From Acidimicrobiales bacterium (lineage in GTDB: Bacteria > Actinomycetota > Acidimicrobiia > Acidimicrobiales > Palsa-688): a DNA stretch of 12,849 nucleotides. The notes below the pieces were generated by a model. That model did no database searches. It saw only the letters and a list, made by a program, of their open reading frames with translations, and was not told the DNA's origin. The translations under genes and the position numbers were made by a program. The stretch is from positions 1 to 12,849 of the forward strand of contig JASHVH010000187.1 of assembly GCA_030039575.1 (NCBI GenBank), given 5' to 3'. This document shows, piece by piece, positions 3,079-12,849 of the stretch; the first letter of the stretch is position 1, and every line of letters starts with the position of its first letter.

Positions 3079-3185
3079 GGCCCCCGGCGGGGTTGGGGCC
3101 CCCGCCTTGGGGGAGGAGCCTGGGGATGGGGCCCCAGGCGGGTAGACAGCATAGGCCCCCGGCGGGGTTGGGGCCCCAGGCGGGT
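3079..3185. repeat. GC-rich dispersed repeats in front of two divergent glycosyltransferase genes
   Basis: A 24-bp stretch at 3079-3102 recurs identically at 3154-3177, 75 bp away. The second copy extends into ggggccccaggcgggt (ending at 3185), which also occurs at 3128-3143. Each unit contains ggcccc followed by ggggcc and can fold on itself. The block lies in the leader region of the minus-strand glycosyltransferase (start 3044) and before the plus-strand one (start 3340). It contains no credible coding sequence. Confidence 0.7.
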
Positions 3186-6670: not shown

Positions 6671-6939
6671 GCGCCAAGCATTCCAGCCCGGGCCCGGCCG
6701 GCCACATTCGTGCCCCTCGGCTGCTCAGGGCCTACTTCCGCCGGCGGCGCGGCGACTACTTCGCCTACTTCGCCAAGCCTCCTCAGGCGAACTCACCGCT
6801 CGAAAACTCAAAGGTGGCCTCGAACTGGCAAGTCGCTCTCTCGGCGGGCCCTGGTGGGCGCGTGGCTTCCCGCTCCCGCACTGCCCGCCCGCTGTGCCCC
6901 GGCGTCGAGGCGCTCGGCGCACTCGTCGGAGCAGGACCA
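6671..6939. other. Spacer between the permease and the potassium channel, holding the permease read-through frame
   Basis: Nearly half of this stretch (6808-6939) continues the permease frame after its TAA and encodes the missing half of a YHS domain. The remainder includes ctacttcgc twice in tandem (6756-6773) and a related copy at 6732. I see no other gene here. Confidence 0.6.
6808..6939 (-). pseudogene. Second half of a YHS metal-binding domain, cut off from the permease by a TAA
   Basis: Directly after the permease stop, the same frame continues for 43 codons to a TGA at 6810-6808 and begins WSCSDECAERLDAG. YHS domains follow the pattern DPVCGM...T-Y-Y-F-C-S-x-x-C-x-x-x-F. The permease ends in DPVCGI...EGAGT and this frame supplies W-S-C-S-D-E-C, so the TAA occupies the position of the conserved Tyr (TAC or TAT to TAA is one base). 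The two Cys at codons 3 and 7 after the stop would be the metal ligands. After about 14 residues the sequence turns into Ala/Arg-rich tail. It is either a recent nonsense mutation, an error in the sequence, or a read-through extension. Confidence 0.72.
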
Positions 6940-8184
6940 TTACGTACCAGCGCCCTCGGTCCGGCTCGCCGTCGCCGCCGTTGGGGGGACGTGGATGCCG
7001 CAGACCGGGTCGGTGGCGTAGCCCGAGCCGCTTTCAGCCCGGCTCCGGTCCCGGTACAGCCAGTACAGGACGGCGAACACCCCCAGGAACACGATGTTGA
7101 GGACCGTCGTGTAGTCCCAGCTGAAGCCGACGGCCACGATCTGGGTCGGCCGGTGCTGGGGGACCAGCCCGACGGCCGAGAAGAGGGCACCCACAACGAG
7201 GCCGGCGCCGGCCATGACCGCCCAGAACAGCCCGACCAGCCGCAGGGTGAGGGCGCCGGCGTAGTAACGGCGGTAGATGAGCACCAGCGGAGCGGCGACG
7301 AGGTCGGCGAAAATGAAGCTGACCACGCCACCGAAACTGATCCCACCTTTCCAAAGGGCAGCGGCCAGGGGGACGTTGCCGATCGAGCAGACGAAGCTCA
7401 AGAAGGCGATTACGGGGCCGACTACCGCGTTCTCGATGGCGGTCCAGACGCCGTGCCCGTGGACGAACAGGGTGGCCCACACGTGGTCAGGCACCAGCAC
7501 CGCCAGGAAACCGGCCGCGACGTACCCGATCACCATTTCCTTGCGGAGCATTTTCAGGTCGGCCATGGTGTAGCCGGCGGCGCCGGACCAGGCCGCCTTG
7601 GACCGTAGTTGCCGCCCCCATGACCTCTCCTCGGCATAGTCTCCGCCGTGCGAAGGGCCGCCGTGCACGTGCTCATGGCGGCCGCCGCCCGCCCCCCGTT
7701 CGAAGCGGCGCCGGGCCGCCGCCACCAGCCGGGGGCTGAGGACCAGCCCTCCGAAGGCGGCCAGGAGCACGATCATTATCGGCCCACCAACGAACTCCGC
7801 CGCCGTGAACTGCCAGCCGATCAGCACCGCCAGCACGATCCCCAGCTCGATCACCAGGTTGGTGGAGGCGACCATGAACACCATGGCCGAGACGAAATCG
7901 GCCCCCTTCTGGAAGAGGGACTTCGCCATGGCCGCGGCGGCGTAAGAACACGACGACGACGCCATCCCGAACCCGCTGGCTCGGGCGATGGCGGCCGGGC
8001 GGTGGTTGCCTAACGAACGTCCCATGTCGTGAGTTGTGACGAACGCCTGAACTGCGCCCGAAAGCCCAAAGCCGAGCACTATTGGCCACAGGGTCTCCCA
8101 GAACATGAAGAACGCTTCCCGCAGCGACCTGCCGATGTCGCCTAGCGCGTCGCCGGCAGTGGTGGCGACGAGGTGGTCAAACAC
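6940..8184 (-). CDS. Heavy-metal (probably copper) permease, ArsP/DUF318-like, with a truncated YHS tail
   Basis: A 414-residue multi-spanning membrane protein. It shows the two-fold motif of this permease family: GFGMASSSCSYAAAAMAKSL (71-90) and SFVCSIGNVPLAAALW (263-278), each placing a Cys (79, 266) next to small residues in a membrane helix. Between the halves is a cytoplasmic loop with clustered His (170, 172, 174, 179), a likely metal-binding site. The C-terminus has TDPVCGIHV (391-399), the opening of a YHS metal-binding domain, then a TAA. The start is a GTG at 8184, 21 bp after the csoR stop and in the same frame as it; no strong ribosome binding site precedes it, so translational coupling is likely. 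CsoR upstream points to efflux or handling of Cu(I); other metals remain possible. Membrane location is certain from hydrophobicity, substrate is inferred. Confidence 0.85.
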   Translation of the reverse strand: MFDHLVATTAGDALGDIGRSLREAFFMFWETLWPIVLGFGLSGAVQAFVTTHDMGRSLGNHRPAAIARASGFGMASSSCSYAAAAMAKSLFQKGADFVSAMVFMVASTNLVIELGIVLAVLIGWQFTAAEFVGGPIMIVLLAAFGGLVLSPRLVAAARRRFERGAGGGRHEHVHGGPSHGGDYAEERSWGRQLRSKAAWSGAAGYTMADLKMLRKEMVIGYVAAGFLAVLVPDHVWATLFVHGHGVWTAIENAVVGPVIAFLSFVCSIGNVPLAAALWKGGISFGGVVSFIFADLVAAPLVLIYRRYYAGALTLRLVGLFWAVMAGAGLVVGALFSAVGLVPQHRPTQIVAVGFSWDYTTVLNIVFLGVFAVLYWLYRDRSRAESGSGYATDPVCGIHVPPTAATASRTEGAGT

Positions 8185-8205: not shown

Positions 8206-8487
8206 TCACGAGCGCACCAACCTCTCGATAGCCTCCCGGGCTTCACGCAGCTTGGCGTCCGCCTCCGGGCCTCCCTCGGCCACTGCGTCGCGCACGCAAT
8301 GGCCCAGGTGATCACCTAGCAATTCGAGGGCCACGGACTCCAGGGCGCGGGTGGCGGCGGAAACCTGGGTCAGCACGTCGATGCAGTAAGCGTCCTCATC
8401 GACCATGCGCTGTAGCCCTCTGACCTGCCCTTCGATGCGGCGGAGGCGCCGCAGTACACCCTCTTTGTCTTCGCTGTAGCCAGCCAT
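8206..8487 (-). CDS. csoR: CsoR-family copper-sensing transcriptional repressor
   Basis: A 93-residue all-helical repressor starting at the ATG at 8487 (MAGYSEDKEGVLRRLRRIEG). A longer frame reaches 8547, but that region is the ribosome-binding repeat. The W-X-Y-Z copper signature is complete: Tyr34-Cys35 in EDAYCIDVLTQVSAATRALE, His60 in LLGDHLGHCV, and Cys64. These match the Cys-His-Cys Cu(I) ligands of the actinobacterial CsoR proteins. The absence of a nickel or formaldehyde ligand pattern argues against RcnR or FrmR. CsoR releases DNA when it binds Cu(I), so the permease 21 bp downstream should be induced by copper. A CsoR-type operator overlapping a promoter lies at 8561-8593, making autoregulation likely. 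The gene is divergent from tatA. Confidence 0.93.
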   Translation of the reverse strand: MAGYSEDKEGVLRRLRRIEGQVRGLQRMVDEDAYCIDVLTQVSAATRALESVALELLGDHLGHCVRDAVAEGGPEADAKLREAREAIERLVRS

Positions 8488-8496
8488 TCGCCGCCT

Positions 8497-8520
8497 TCTC
8501 CTGTTCTCCTGTTCTCCTGT
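8497..8520 (-). repeat. Three tandem 8-bp repeats each carrying a Shine-Dalgarno core
   Basis: On the plus strand the unit tctcctgt occurs three times in a row (8497-8504, 8505-8512, 8513-8520); on the coding strand each reads ACAGGAGA with an AGGAG core. The nearest core is about 10 nt before the csoR ATG. A partial fourth, AGAGGA, follows at 8521-8526. Confidence 0.85.
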
Positions 8521-8694: not shown

Positions 8695-9057
8695 GTGGTC
8701 TCTACGATTTTTTCGGGTTGGGACGACCTGATCGTCATCCTGGTAGCGCTCGTCGTCCTCTTCGGGGGGACGCAATTGCCAAAGCTCGCCCGCAACACAG
8801 GCGAGGCGCTGCGGGAGTTCCGCAAGTCTCATTCCGAGGCGGAGTCGGCTAGCTCAGCCGTCAGCGCACCCCCTGCGCCGGCTGCCACCCCAACTACCCC
8901 GGCCTTGCCGACCACGGCGCAGGCCGGCGGGACCGGCCAGGGCGTTGCGGCACCGGCTGCACCTGACACTGTGACGCTGACGCAGGCGCAGCTCGATGCT
9001 CTCGTTGCCGAGCGCGTCGCCCAGACCCAAGCCGAGGGGCGCAAGGCGGGGAGCTGA
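8695..9057 (+). CDS. tatA: TatA, twin-arginine translocase subunit
   Basis: A 120-residue protein that begins at a GTG with a strong GGGAGG. Residues about 8-24 form one transmembrane helix, followed by the hinge FGGTQLPKLARNTGEALREF (23-42), the TatA signature with F-G-x-x-x-L-P and an amphipathic helix. TatA oligomerises to form the passage for folded Tat substrates carrying twin-Arg signals. Residues about 50-90 are Ala/Pro/Thr-rich, and the C-terminus (VTLTQAQLDALVAERVAQ) is a second amphipathic helix that ordinary TatA tails often lack. It is the first of three tat genes in a row and is divergent from csoR. Confidence 0.92.
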   Translation: MVSTIFSGWDDLIVILVALVVLFGGTQLPKLARNTGEALREFRKSHSEAESASSAVSAPPAPAATPTTPALPTTAQAGGTGQGVAAPAAPDTVTLTQAQLDALVAERVAQTQAEGRKAGS

Positions 9058-9100
9058 CCCCATGGCGGCCATGCTCCCTGAACTGCTGCCCGCCTAGGCC

Positions 9101-9106
9101 GGGGAG
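9101..9106 (+). promoter_or_regulatory. Ribosome binding site of the tatB-like gene
   Basis: GGGGAG lies 6 nt before the GTG at 9113 and supports that start over any later one. Confidence 0.7.
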
Positions 9107-9112
9107 CAAGCG

Positions 9113-9544
9113 GTGAACCTCGACCCCGAAAAGCTCCTGGTGCTTTTCGTCATTGCCATGCTCGTCCTCGGGCCAAAAAGGTTGCCAGAGGCCGCCCGGA
9201 CAATGGGGCGGTGGATGGCGGAGCTGCGCAAGTACACGTCAGGCTTCCAATCGGAGTTCAACAACCTGCTCGCCGAACCCCGCGAGCACACTTCTGCACT
9301 GCGCGACGAGTTCCGCAATGTCCTGGCCGAACCCCGGGCGGCCCTCGAAGCCGGGGCCCGTGAGGCACAGTCAGCGGTCAACGAGGCCAGTGCCGCCGCC
9401 GCCACCGCCGCCACCCCCACCACGGCCGCCGGCGCTGAAGTGGTTGCCCCCATTCAGAGCCCGCCAGCGCCGAGCCCGGTCCAACCGCAGGAGCCTGTAA
9501 GCGCGCCTCTCAACGCAGTCCCCGACGACCCCAGCCTCAACTAG
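9113..9544 (+). CDS. tatB: TatB-like twin-arginine translocase subunit
   Basis: A 143-residue Sec-independent translocase protein. A single N-terminal membrane helix (about 7-20) leads to LVLGPKRLPEAARTMGRWMA (17-36). The G-P-x-R-L-P hinge is the TatB form rather than the F-G of TatA, and the long amphipathic helix continues to about residue 80. TatB binds TatC and receives the twin-arginine signal peptide. Residues 48-57 (EFNNLLAEPR) and 66-75 (EFRNVLAEPR) are an 18-residue-spaced duplication. The tail is Ala/Pro/Thr-rich and disordered. It lies 55 bp after tatA and 106 bp before tatC. A second TatA is the alternative, since many actinobacteria keep tatB away from tatAC. Confidence 0.85.
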   Translation: MNLDPEKLLVLFVIAMLVLGPKRLPEAARTMGRWMAELRKYTSGFQSEFNNLLAEPREHTSALRDEFRNVLAEPRAALEAGAREAQSAVNEASAAAATAATPTTAAGAEVVAPIQSPPAPSPVQPQEPVSAPLNAVPDDPSLN

Positions 9545-9618
9545 CGCGGCAGCTCGAAGTGAGCCCTGTGACCGTCCCGGGAACTGCAGCCGGACCGTAC
9601 GTGTCCCGTAACCGCCGG

Positions 9619-9641
9619 CCCCGCAGTCGCCGGCGGGGAGG
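9619..9641 (+). promoter_or_regulatory. tatC ribosome binding site with an overlapping small hairpin
   Basis: GGGGAGG (9635-9641) sits 9 nt before the ATG at 9651. The 6-bp inverted pair ccccgc (9619-9624) and gcgggg (9633-9638), loop 8, would cover part of it. The hairpin may lower tatC translation; this is a structural guess from complementarity only. Confidence 0.4.
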
Positions 9642-9650
9642 ACGCTGAGC

Positions 9651-10565
9651 ATGGCCGGCGACCACGACCCGCAGGAGGGCCAGGGGGCGGAGGCGCTGGG
9701 GGACCTGCCCAGCACGATGTTGGGCTCAGAGGGTATAGGGGTGGCAGTCCCGGAAAACGGTGCGACGGCCGCTCCACTGGACGACGTGGCGACGGCCAGC
9801 CTGAACGGCCACCAGCCTGGCGAGGCGGAACTGGATGGTGCCGGGGGCACCATGACCCTGTTCGAGCACCTGGCCGAGCTGCGCAAGCGGGTCCTCATTT
9901 GCGCCGTAGCCGTCGTCGTGACCTCCATCGCCGGCTACTTCCTGTACAACCCGGTGCTCCACTTCATGACCGGGCCGTACCGGAACTTCTATAAGCACCA
10001 CAAGGACATGATCACCTCGCAGCTGGTGATCTCCAGCCCCACCGAGGGTTTCACTACCAGGCTGAAAGTGTCCATGTACATCGGGGTAGCGCTGGCCGCG
10101 CCTGTCTGGCTATGGGAGCTGTGGCGGTTCATCACTCCGGGCTTGAAAAAGAACGAGAAGCAATACGCCATCCCGTTCGTCCTTTCGGCCTGCATCCTGT
10201 TCGCGATGGGCGTGGCTACGGCCATATTTATCTGGCCAAAGGCCCTCAACTGGCTGATCGACGCCAGTGGCACGGGGGTGGCCCCGCTTTTCAGCCCGGC
10301 CGGCTACGTCCACATTTACGTACTCATTTGCCTGGTGTTCGGGGCCGTGTTCCTGTACCCGATCATCGTCGTCTTCCTGATGATCTCGGGCGTGGTGCCG
10401 TCCAGAAAGTGGCGGAAATGGCGCCGCCCCGCCATTGTCGTCCTGTGCGGCATTGCCGCGGTCGTAACGCCCTCCAACGACCCCTTCAGCTTCACGGCAC
10501 TGGCGGTGCCCATGGTGTTGCTTTACGAGGGTTCGATCGTCGTCGGCCGGTTACTGAAGAAGTAA
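9651..10565 (+). CDS. tatC: TatC, twin-arginine translocase receptor subunit
   Basis: A 304-residue polytopic membrane protein of the Tat system, which recognises twin-Arg signal peptides together with TatB. After a 67-residue acidic, disordered N-terminal extension comes the invariant MTLFEHLAELRKRVLICAVA (68-87). The middle section SSPTEGFTTRLKVSMYIGVA precedes APVWLWELWRFITPGLKKNE, with the conserved Pro/Glu/Trp pattern of the first periplasmic and cytoplasmic loops. VVTPSNDPFSFTALAVPMVL, near the C-terminus, is the last conserved motif. Six membrane helices fit the hydrophobic profile. The upstream ATG at 9651 has GGGGAGG; the ATG at 9852 would give the family's usual N-terminus but has no ribosome binding site. 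It is the last gene of the tat set. Confidence 0.93.
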   Translation: MAGDHDPQEGQGAEALGDLPSTMLGSEGIGVAVPENGATAAPLDDVATASLNGHQPGEAELDGAGGTMTLFEHLAELRKRVLICAVAVVVTSIAGYFLYNPVLHFMTGPYRNFYKHHKDMITSQLVISSPTEGFTTRLKVSMYIGVALAAPVWLWELWRFITPGLKKNEKQYAIPFVLSACILFAMGVATAIFIWPKALNWLIDASGTGVAPLFSPAGYVHIYVLICLVFGAVFLYPIIVVFLMISGVVPSRKWRKWRRPAIVVLCGIAAVVTPSNDPFSFTALAVPMVLLYEGSIVVGRLLKK

Positions 10566-10667
10566 TCCCCCAGCCCCTTCTGCGCGCCACAAAACGCCTA
10601 TACGGGCCATAAGCGACGGCATCGACTAGCGTCCGTTGCGCGAAGCGCCCGAAGTTTTGGAGGTCCT

Positions 10668-10672
10668 GGAGG
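10668..10672 (+). promoter_or_regulatory. Ribosome binding site deciding the MscS-like start
   Basis: GGAGG lies 8 nt before the TTG at 10681. An earlier in-frame TTG at 10636 has no such signal, so 10681 is preferred. Confidence 0.6.
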
Positions 10673-10680
10673 TAGACAAC

Positions 10681-11691
10681 TTGCCGCGTCGGTACCCGCT
10701 CCACGGCTGGGTGATCGGGATCTTTTCGGGTGCAGTCACGCTCGCTGCGCTCGTCGCCGGGTCGATATACGGCAACGGCGAGGCGAAGACCTTCAACCCC
10801 AAGCTCGTAGCCTGGGTCTGCGCCGCCGCTATCGTCGGGTTCGGCATCCTGGCGACTGCCAGGCTGTCTACGGCGCTCAGCCGTCTAATGGCGCGTCGGA
10901 ACGCCCCCGCCTTCGAAGGGGCGGTGAAGTTCCTGTCGGCCGCGGTTGGTTACTTGTTCGTGGGCTTCGCTGCGCTGGCCGTGCTCCAGGTTTCGCTGGC
11001 GCGCCTGCTCGTAGGGGCCGGGGTGGCCGGCATCGTGCTCGGCATCGCCGCACAGCAAAGCCTCGGCAACATCTTCGCCGGCCTGGTGCTGATCCTGTCC
11101 AGGCCGTTCGTGGTCGGTGACCACATCCGGATCCGTTCGGGGGCGCTGGGCGGGATCTTCGACGCCTGGGTGCTCGAAATGAGCCTTGTCTACGTCACCG
11201 TCCGGACCGATGACGGGGAACTGAAGATCCCGAACACGGCCATGCTGGCCGCCGGCGTCGGGAGGTTACCGCGCCACGACGCCCCGCCCAAACGAAGGAG
11301 GGGACGCCGGGCCGAAGCCGCCGCCGCGGCCGCCGCCGCTCAAGCGTCCACGGCTCCAACCGCCCCCACCCCAGCACCTCCGGCCCCAACTGCAGGCGCC
11401 CAGGCCGCCCCCGCTCAGGTCGCCGCAGAACAGCCTGCCTTGGTCTCGACGGACGGGGGGCAGGCCGCCTCCGCCCAGGTTGTGGTCCCTCAAACTGAAG
11501 CCACACATGTCGCCCCTCCCGAGACGAAGCCCACCGCGACCGCGCCCGCCAAGCCCGCCGCCACCAAGACGAAGCGGCGGGTCGGCCGGCCCAGGGCTGG
11601 CCGGCTGGCGACGATCAGGGCGAAGGCAAACCGGGAGGAGCCGGCCCCGGCCCCGCCGCCAGGGTCTCCGGGGGGGCCAGAGGCCCAGTGA
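10681..11691 (+). CDS. Shortened MscS-type mechanosensitive channel with an Ala/Pro-rich basic tail
   Basis: A 336-residue membrane protein started at TTG 10681 (a longer form from 10636 is possible). Two membrane helices precede the MscS pore segment: [20 protein letters not shown] (110-129), then [20 protein letters not shown] (130-149), the family's most conserved stretch. A beta domain follows, with the motif [12 protein letters not shown] ending near residue 191. The alpha/beta vestibule domain of about 80 residues found in full MscS proteins is absent. In its place is a tail of about 140 residues made mostly of Ala, Pro and Thr, with basic clusters KRRRGRR and [14 protein letters not shown]. 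The tail is presumably cytoplasmic and disordered. The family relieves osmotic stress; whether this short form still gates is unknown. Its stop overlaps the next gene by four bases (GTGA). Confidence 0.85.
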
Positions 11692-12849
11692 CCCCTCCAC
11701 GGATCCGGGCCGAGCGGGGGACGCAGCGCACGTGCAAGGGCTGGCCTCAGGAGGCGGCGCTGCGCATGCTCCATAACAACCTGGACCCGGAGGTGGCCGA
11801 GCACCCCGAGGCCCTGGTCGTCTACGGCGGCACCGGCCGGGCGGCGCGGGACTGGCCGTCGTTCTATGCCATCGAGGCGGCGCTGCGGGCGCTCGAGGAC
11901 GACGAGACGCTGCTGGTCCAGTCCGGCCGGCCCGTCGGCGTCTTCCGCACCCACGAGTGGGCGCCCCGAGTCCTTATCGCCAACGCCAACCTGGTCCCGG
12001 AGTGGGCGAACTGGGACGAGTTCCGCCGCCTCGAGCGGCTCGGGCTCACCATGTACGGCCAGATGACCGCCGGCAGCTGGATCTACATCGGTACTCAGGG
12101 GATCCTCCAGGGGACCTACGAGACCTTTGCCGCCATAGCCGACAAGCGCTTCGACGGCAGCCTGGTGGGGACGTTGACGGTCACCTGCGGCGCCGGTGGC
12201 ATGGGCGGCGCCCAGCCGCTCGCCGTGACCATGAACGGGGGCGTCGTCCTCTGCTGCGACGTCGACCCGAGCCGGGTCGAACGCCGGCTGCAGACCAGCT
12301 ACCTGGACACCGTGGCCCACGACCTGGACGAGGCGTTGGCCCTGGCCGAACAGGCGCGCCAAGACGCCCGGCCCCTGTCGATCGGGCTGGTGGCCAACGG
12401 GGCCGAGACCATCCCCGAGATCGCCCGCCGCCACGTACCGGTCGACATCGCCACCGACCAGACCCCGGCCCACGACCCGCTCAGCTACGTGCCCGAAGGG
12501 ATGAGCCTGGCGGAAGCGGCCGACCTGCGGGCCACCCGCCCGGCCGAGTACCTGAAGCGGGCGCGAGCGTCGATGGCGGCCCACTGTGCCGCGCTGGTCG
12601 ACCTGCTCGACCGGGGGGCCGAGGTGTTCGACTACGGCAACAGCCTGCGGGCCGAAGCCCGCCTCGGCGGCTTCGACCGGGCCTTCGACTACCCGGGCTT
12701 CGTCCCCGCCTATATCCGCCCCCTGTTCTGCGAGGGGAAGGGCCCGTTCCGGTGGGCCGCCCTCTCGGGTGACCCGGAAGACATCGCCGCCACCGACGCC
12801 GCCGTGCAGTCGCTGTTCCCGGACAACGACCGCCTGTGCCGTTGGCTTG
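11688..12849 (+). CDS. hutU: Urocanate hydratase (partial, runs off the right edge)
   Basis: The GTG at 11688 opens a frame of 387 codons that reaches the window end without a stop; the full family length is about 550 residues. It matches urocanase throughout: [19 protein letters not shown] (10-28), [16 protein letters not shown] (44-59), [20 protein letters not shown] (121-140) and [20 protein letters not shown] (165-184), which carries the glycine-rich NAD-binding loop. The right end, [20 protein letters not shown] (344-363), is another conserved block. The enzyme adds water to urocanate using NAD as an electrophilic cofactor, the second step of histidine breakdown in the cytoplasm. The catalytic Cys that family members have in the missing C-terminal part cannot be checked. 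It overlaps the MscS-like gene by 4 bp. No hutH is visible to the left. Confidence 0.95.

Follow-up and report, generated by a model that had tools for sequence, protein, structure and literature searches.

Does the permease gene of this 12,849-nucleotide stretch of DNA (the window) end where it seems to end? Its 414-residue product has the C-terminus DPVCGIHVPPTAATASRTEGAGT, followed by TAA, and past this stop the same frame reads WSCSDECAERLDAGAQRAG, remaining open for 43 codons with both cysteines present, i.e., the frame continues into the second half of a YHS domain. The stop could be a nonsense mutation, a sequence error, a site of read-through or the start of a further reading frame. 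We consider it highly probable that a nonsense mutation deprived the permease of its YHS tail while the remainder of the protein has been maintained. The body of the protein belongs to the ArsP_1 family (PF03773), scoring 181.7 bits over residues 27-332 where the cut-off is 32.3, and no solved structure matched its sequence at E ≤ 1. The coordinates are shown in the table below. Between 6600 and 7000, no site resembling a promoter or terminator was detected. ARAGORN also called a tRNA-Pro at 3101-3185 (plus strand) and a tRNA-Arg at 11277-11348 (minus strand), both absent from an Rfam tRNA search of the organism's own genome, and these calls are probably false.

Table. Features of the window (positions count from its first nucleotide)
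Feature	Position	Strand	Remarks
Permease ORF including stop	6940-8184	minus	
ArsP_1-type permease (PF03773)	6943..8184	minus	GTG start, 414 aa; residues 386-414 are the first half of the YHS domain, with D392 and C395 retained
TAA stop	6940-6942	minus	at a codon that is Tyr in close relatives; next base T (UAAU)
In-frame remnant, second half of YHS domain and end	6862..6939	minus	C418/C422 retained, F417S/F426L; untranslated barring read-through
CsoR/RicR-like metal-sensing repressor (PF02583)	8206..8511	minus	21 bases upstream of the permease; coordinates with provisional start
Two tatA/B-type genes and tatC	8695-10562	plus	
MscS-type channel gene and urocanate hydratase gene	within 8695-12848	plus	urocanate hydratase gene truncated at the end of the contig

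The nearest protein among the matches listed, P0002 (443 residues), is 91% identical to the window permease, and the next, P0003, is 88% identical. Both have Tyr at the position of the TAA, preceding the W-F-C of a C-terminal YHS domain, and in the alignment with homologues these nearest relatives carry the whole domain (in P0002, 25.8 bits and E = 1e-5 with the Pfam profile). Because P0002 reads DPVCAMHVPLMGATASRTEGGETYWFCSDECAGRFDAGAQRAG at this site, the stop falls exactly at a Tyr codon of the YHS domain, as the initial annotation had stated. The remnant is identical to P0002 at 21 of 26 residues, with both cysteines kept, and the downstream match is therefore not due to chance. The same annotation described this Tyr as conserved, which is true of the nearest relatives; across the family the residue is Tyr in just 55 of 117 (Val in 24, Phe in 11), so that the column is not strongly conserved in the subfamily.

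A closer relative was also sought at the DNA level, in three sets that each included the organism's own genome (32 genomes from the family, 397 from the order and 99 from mixed relatives), in two further families (3 and 17 genomes) and in the best 80 of 366 confirmed contig matches. Among the matches listed, the best besides the window itself (G152) reached 70-73% identity across most of the query length. A short fragment covering residues 7-136 (G119) was 81% identical and contained a TAG, and two genus-mate drafts (92% and 68% complete) gave no match. Among the best 80 of 366 confirmed matches, the closest loci came mostly from Actinomycetota drafts of uncultured organisms.

The alignment comprised the window frame and 119 relatives (P0002-P0120), taken as the best 120 out of 7996 hits less the window's own, and changes were counted at columns conserved in at least 95%, of which 10 lay in the YHS region and 154 in the permease body. 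Changes private to the window were found at 3/10 of the former and 0/154 of the latter (Fisher p = 1.7e-4), the ten YHS columns being few and the region having been picked after the sequence was seen. When all changes were counted, the body had 2/154, both common to P0002 (p = 1.6e-3); the distribution of private changes was additionally examined in bins. One YHS change, M397I, lies before the stop, at a position that is Met in 116/116 relatives with a residue there, and two lie after it, F417S (Phe in 116/117) and F426L (Phe in 113/117). At the same columns, 102 of 117 other relatives had no deviation, 11 had one, 3 had two and 1 had five, where at least 8 such YHS columns were required (P0011 and P0046, with too few, were dropped). 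The sole relative with at least three, P0045, has a tail that looks frameshifted, and P0002 deviates once, with G396A. When the threshold was loosened to 90% the contrast was weaker, the window deviating at 4/17 YHS columns versus 5/191 in the body, and the intact relatives P0005 and P0010 each had 4/17 YHS deviations, equal to the window.

The profile searches agree with this count. With X placed at the stop, the frame read through gave no match to the Pfam YHS model (E limit 10, although the HMMER filters drop most matches above about 0.1), whereas 8/8 close relatives did match, at 21.4-27.8 bits, themselves below the Pfam cut-off of 30.3. The 414-residue protein gave no row with PF04945 (YHS) at E ≤ 1; searched separately, the final 24 residues scored 12.8 bits (E = 0.12), and at E ≤ 0.001 PF04945 matched nothing in the organism's own genome, a 68% complete draft. 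From the private changes, 3/10 versus 0/154, and the missing YHS match, the permease core looks constrained and the YHS tail looks to be decaying. This runs counter to two statements of the initial annotation, one calling the remainder of the domain intact and the other denying visible decay of the downstream frame, since near-invariant YHS positions are substituted on both sides of the stop. The truncation is nevertheless recent, because the remnant still matches P0002 at most positions, keeps its Cys pair and has a high third-codon-position GC (0.85), and the remnant may still be under some degree of selection.

The same pattern bears on the possibility of a single-base assembly or consensus error, in which case the gene would truly encode a full-length permease with a complete tail. 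The host assembly is a 3.83-Mb draft in 565 contigs, 68% complete (the window is contig 355), and one wrong base would suffice to make the stop. However, the domain carries three private changes besides the stop and the body none at 154 columns, and errors are not expected to cluster in one domain; moreover, the domain fails the Pfam model even when the stop is masked. We therefore regard an error as unlikely.

Programmed or leaky read-through, yielding two permease forms with and without a Cys pair, seems very improbable. It would account for a frame that is open past the stop with both cysteines retained, but core residues of the part that would be read through have been lost, and neither constraint past the stop nor conservation of the stop, the marks of programmed read-through, was found. 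A stop at this codon occurred in 0/108 distinct YHS motifs from relatives' loci, in a search that required an intact FC...C. Of bacterial termination signals, the context UAAU has been reported to be the strongest (PMC5289835, in the portion available), and TAA is also the stop of 3/9 other window genes examined (4/10 with the permease). No stop-decoding anticodon was present in 24 ARAGORN tRNAs (25 tRNA-family hits; the genome is incomplete, and tRNA-Tyr was likewise unseen), and the organism's own genome encodes two release factors of the RF-1 family. RNA from the stop onward folds no better than shuffled sequences (z = -0.68). Because near-invariant YHS positions changed on both sides of the stop and the body did not, both selected read-through and random sequence error are disfavoured, and of the three readings offered in the initial annotation it is the nonsense mutation that the stop, the YHS substitutions and the conserved body support.

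A related proposal, that the permease subfamily makes a minority YHS-tailed form by low-level read-through of stops, is also scarcely credible. Under that reading a better candidate than the window would be locus L130 (G015:C8), a second nonsense case in the permease family, in which a TAG at 2728-2730 of the locus, followed by C, lies within the FCS-x-x-C of the first YHS domain. Past this TAG the frame runs on for another 96 codons, which encode a second, intact YHS domain. In the five relatives inspected this codon is GAG, GAA or CAA, and the same genome has another copy of the gene with an intact YHS domain (L156).

Least probable is that the TAATG at the stop opens a translationally coupled small ORF of 71 residues, for which the stop was selected. 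TAATG is a frequent form of stop-start overlap, and this frame runs for 71 codons without a stop, but a GC bias by codon position is absent from its first 50, it passes through the old YHS remnant in the wrong frame, and its ATG is a by-product of the change to TAA. Selenocysteine at the permease stop was rejected, as it needs TGA whereas the codon is TAA; a review of selenoproteomes does include a YHS-domain protein (PMC13188914, seen in excerpt).

What would a nonsense truncation have cost the permease? The likely metal ligands of a YHS domain, as reported for a mycobacterial adenylyl cyclase, are one Asp and three Cys (PMC4626032, in part). By alignment these correspond to D392, C395, C418 and C422, and the translated window protein has the first two only. 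The stop thus removes two of four predicted ligands, and because C418 and C422 fall beyond it, the metal site is expected to be missing from the truncated protein. In that report the YHS domain of the Mycobacterium phlei cyclase is described as a probable copper sensor; its ligand set, Asp and Cys followed by Cys-x3-Cys, agrees with the intact permease relatives, in contrast to the window protein with its Asp and first Cys. The ancestral permease would have borne a C-terminal YHS domain of this metal-binding type, with a probable role in metal binding or sensing. Relaxed selection on the tail in the window lineage would have allowed core positions to be substituted, and the TAA would have removed the half with the C-x3-C pair. 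To judge from its conserved body, the truncated permease may still work without the tail.

Similar losses recur among the relatives. Loci were taken from the best 80 of 366 confirmed matches and from the genome searches of the family, the order and relatives, keeping only distinct loci that reach the end of the permease body. Of the 68 such loci whose body is at least 55% identical, 60 had an intact first YHS domain and 8, including the window, had a broken or absent one, although this is not an unbiased sample since fetched loci were added to the best matches. In L005 (apparently) and L181 the domain is broken by a frameshift, in L092 by a TAG inside FCS-x-x-C; it is degenerate in L007 and L012, and no YHS domain is in frame in L141 and L165. 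A tree was drawn with 87 rows, of which 11 are broken (seven loci and proteins P0011, P0045, P0046 and P0085); these require 9 state changes on it, and well-supported branches force at least 7; L181 matched too little of the permease body and stands outside the tree. For some of the losses (L005, L181, P0045 and P0085), a frameshift error in the draft contig may be the cause. Because such losses recur, the window truncation appears to reflect the usual erosion of a gene, not a novel mode of decoding, and domain loss by nonsense mutation is an ordinary kind of event. This suggests that the YHS tail is an optional module of this CsoR-linked permease family, repeatedly lost while the permease is kept, and natural pairs with and without the domain offer a way to ask what it does on a transporter. 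In literature on YHS-domain permeases, and on YHS domains with stop codons, no title or opening of an abstract described such a truncation.

The initial annotation spoke of a copper-type permease. This is reasonable in view of the repressor-like gene upstream, which scored 102.7 bits with PF02583 (cut-off 22.8) and 140.1 of the 175 bits of the RicR exception model, below its cut-off. By reading, it also has what we take to be the Cys-His-Cys motif. The permease itself lies far under the cut-offs of its nearest NCBIfam models, SaoE (NF040736, 50.8 of 325 bits) and SO_0444 Cu/Zn efflux (NF033936, 46.4 of 300 bits). On this basis the protein is probably a CsoR-linked copper exporter, with copper as its presumed substrate, and the repressor and ArsP_1-type permease genes probably form a copper-induced metal exporter. 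Among loci at 55% identity or more, a csoR-like gene lies on the same strand within about 310 bases upstream in 20/33 and anywhere in the locus in 23/33, and L005 and L007, which have lost the YHS domain, keep it adjoining the permease.

The closest known counterparts are the ArsP_1/YraQ (UPF0718) permeases with at least one C-terminal YHS domain, found mostly in Actinomycetota drafts. They resemble the window in a body up to 91% identical and in the csoR-like neighbour just described, and differ in that the YHS domain of the window is cut in the middle and eroded. In Mycobacterium tuberculosis, the putative permease gene rv2963 is reported, in the portion of the source available, to belong to the copper-responsive RicR regulon (PMC10961391). 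The likeness of the window to this type lies in the gene setting, a putative permease under a copper repressor of the CsoR family. No YHS domain was seen in the mycobacterial permeases fetched, which are 46-52% identical to the window.

Below 55% body identity, a YHS domain was present in 1/46 loci (L099, at 54%) and absent in 45/46, and a csoR-like gene was found in 1/47 of the more distant loci. Several of these outgroup loci, to which L103 also belongs, have His-rich tails (e.g., L045, L063 and L067), as if one type of metal-binding tail had replaced another.
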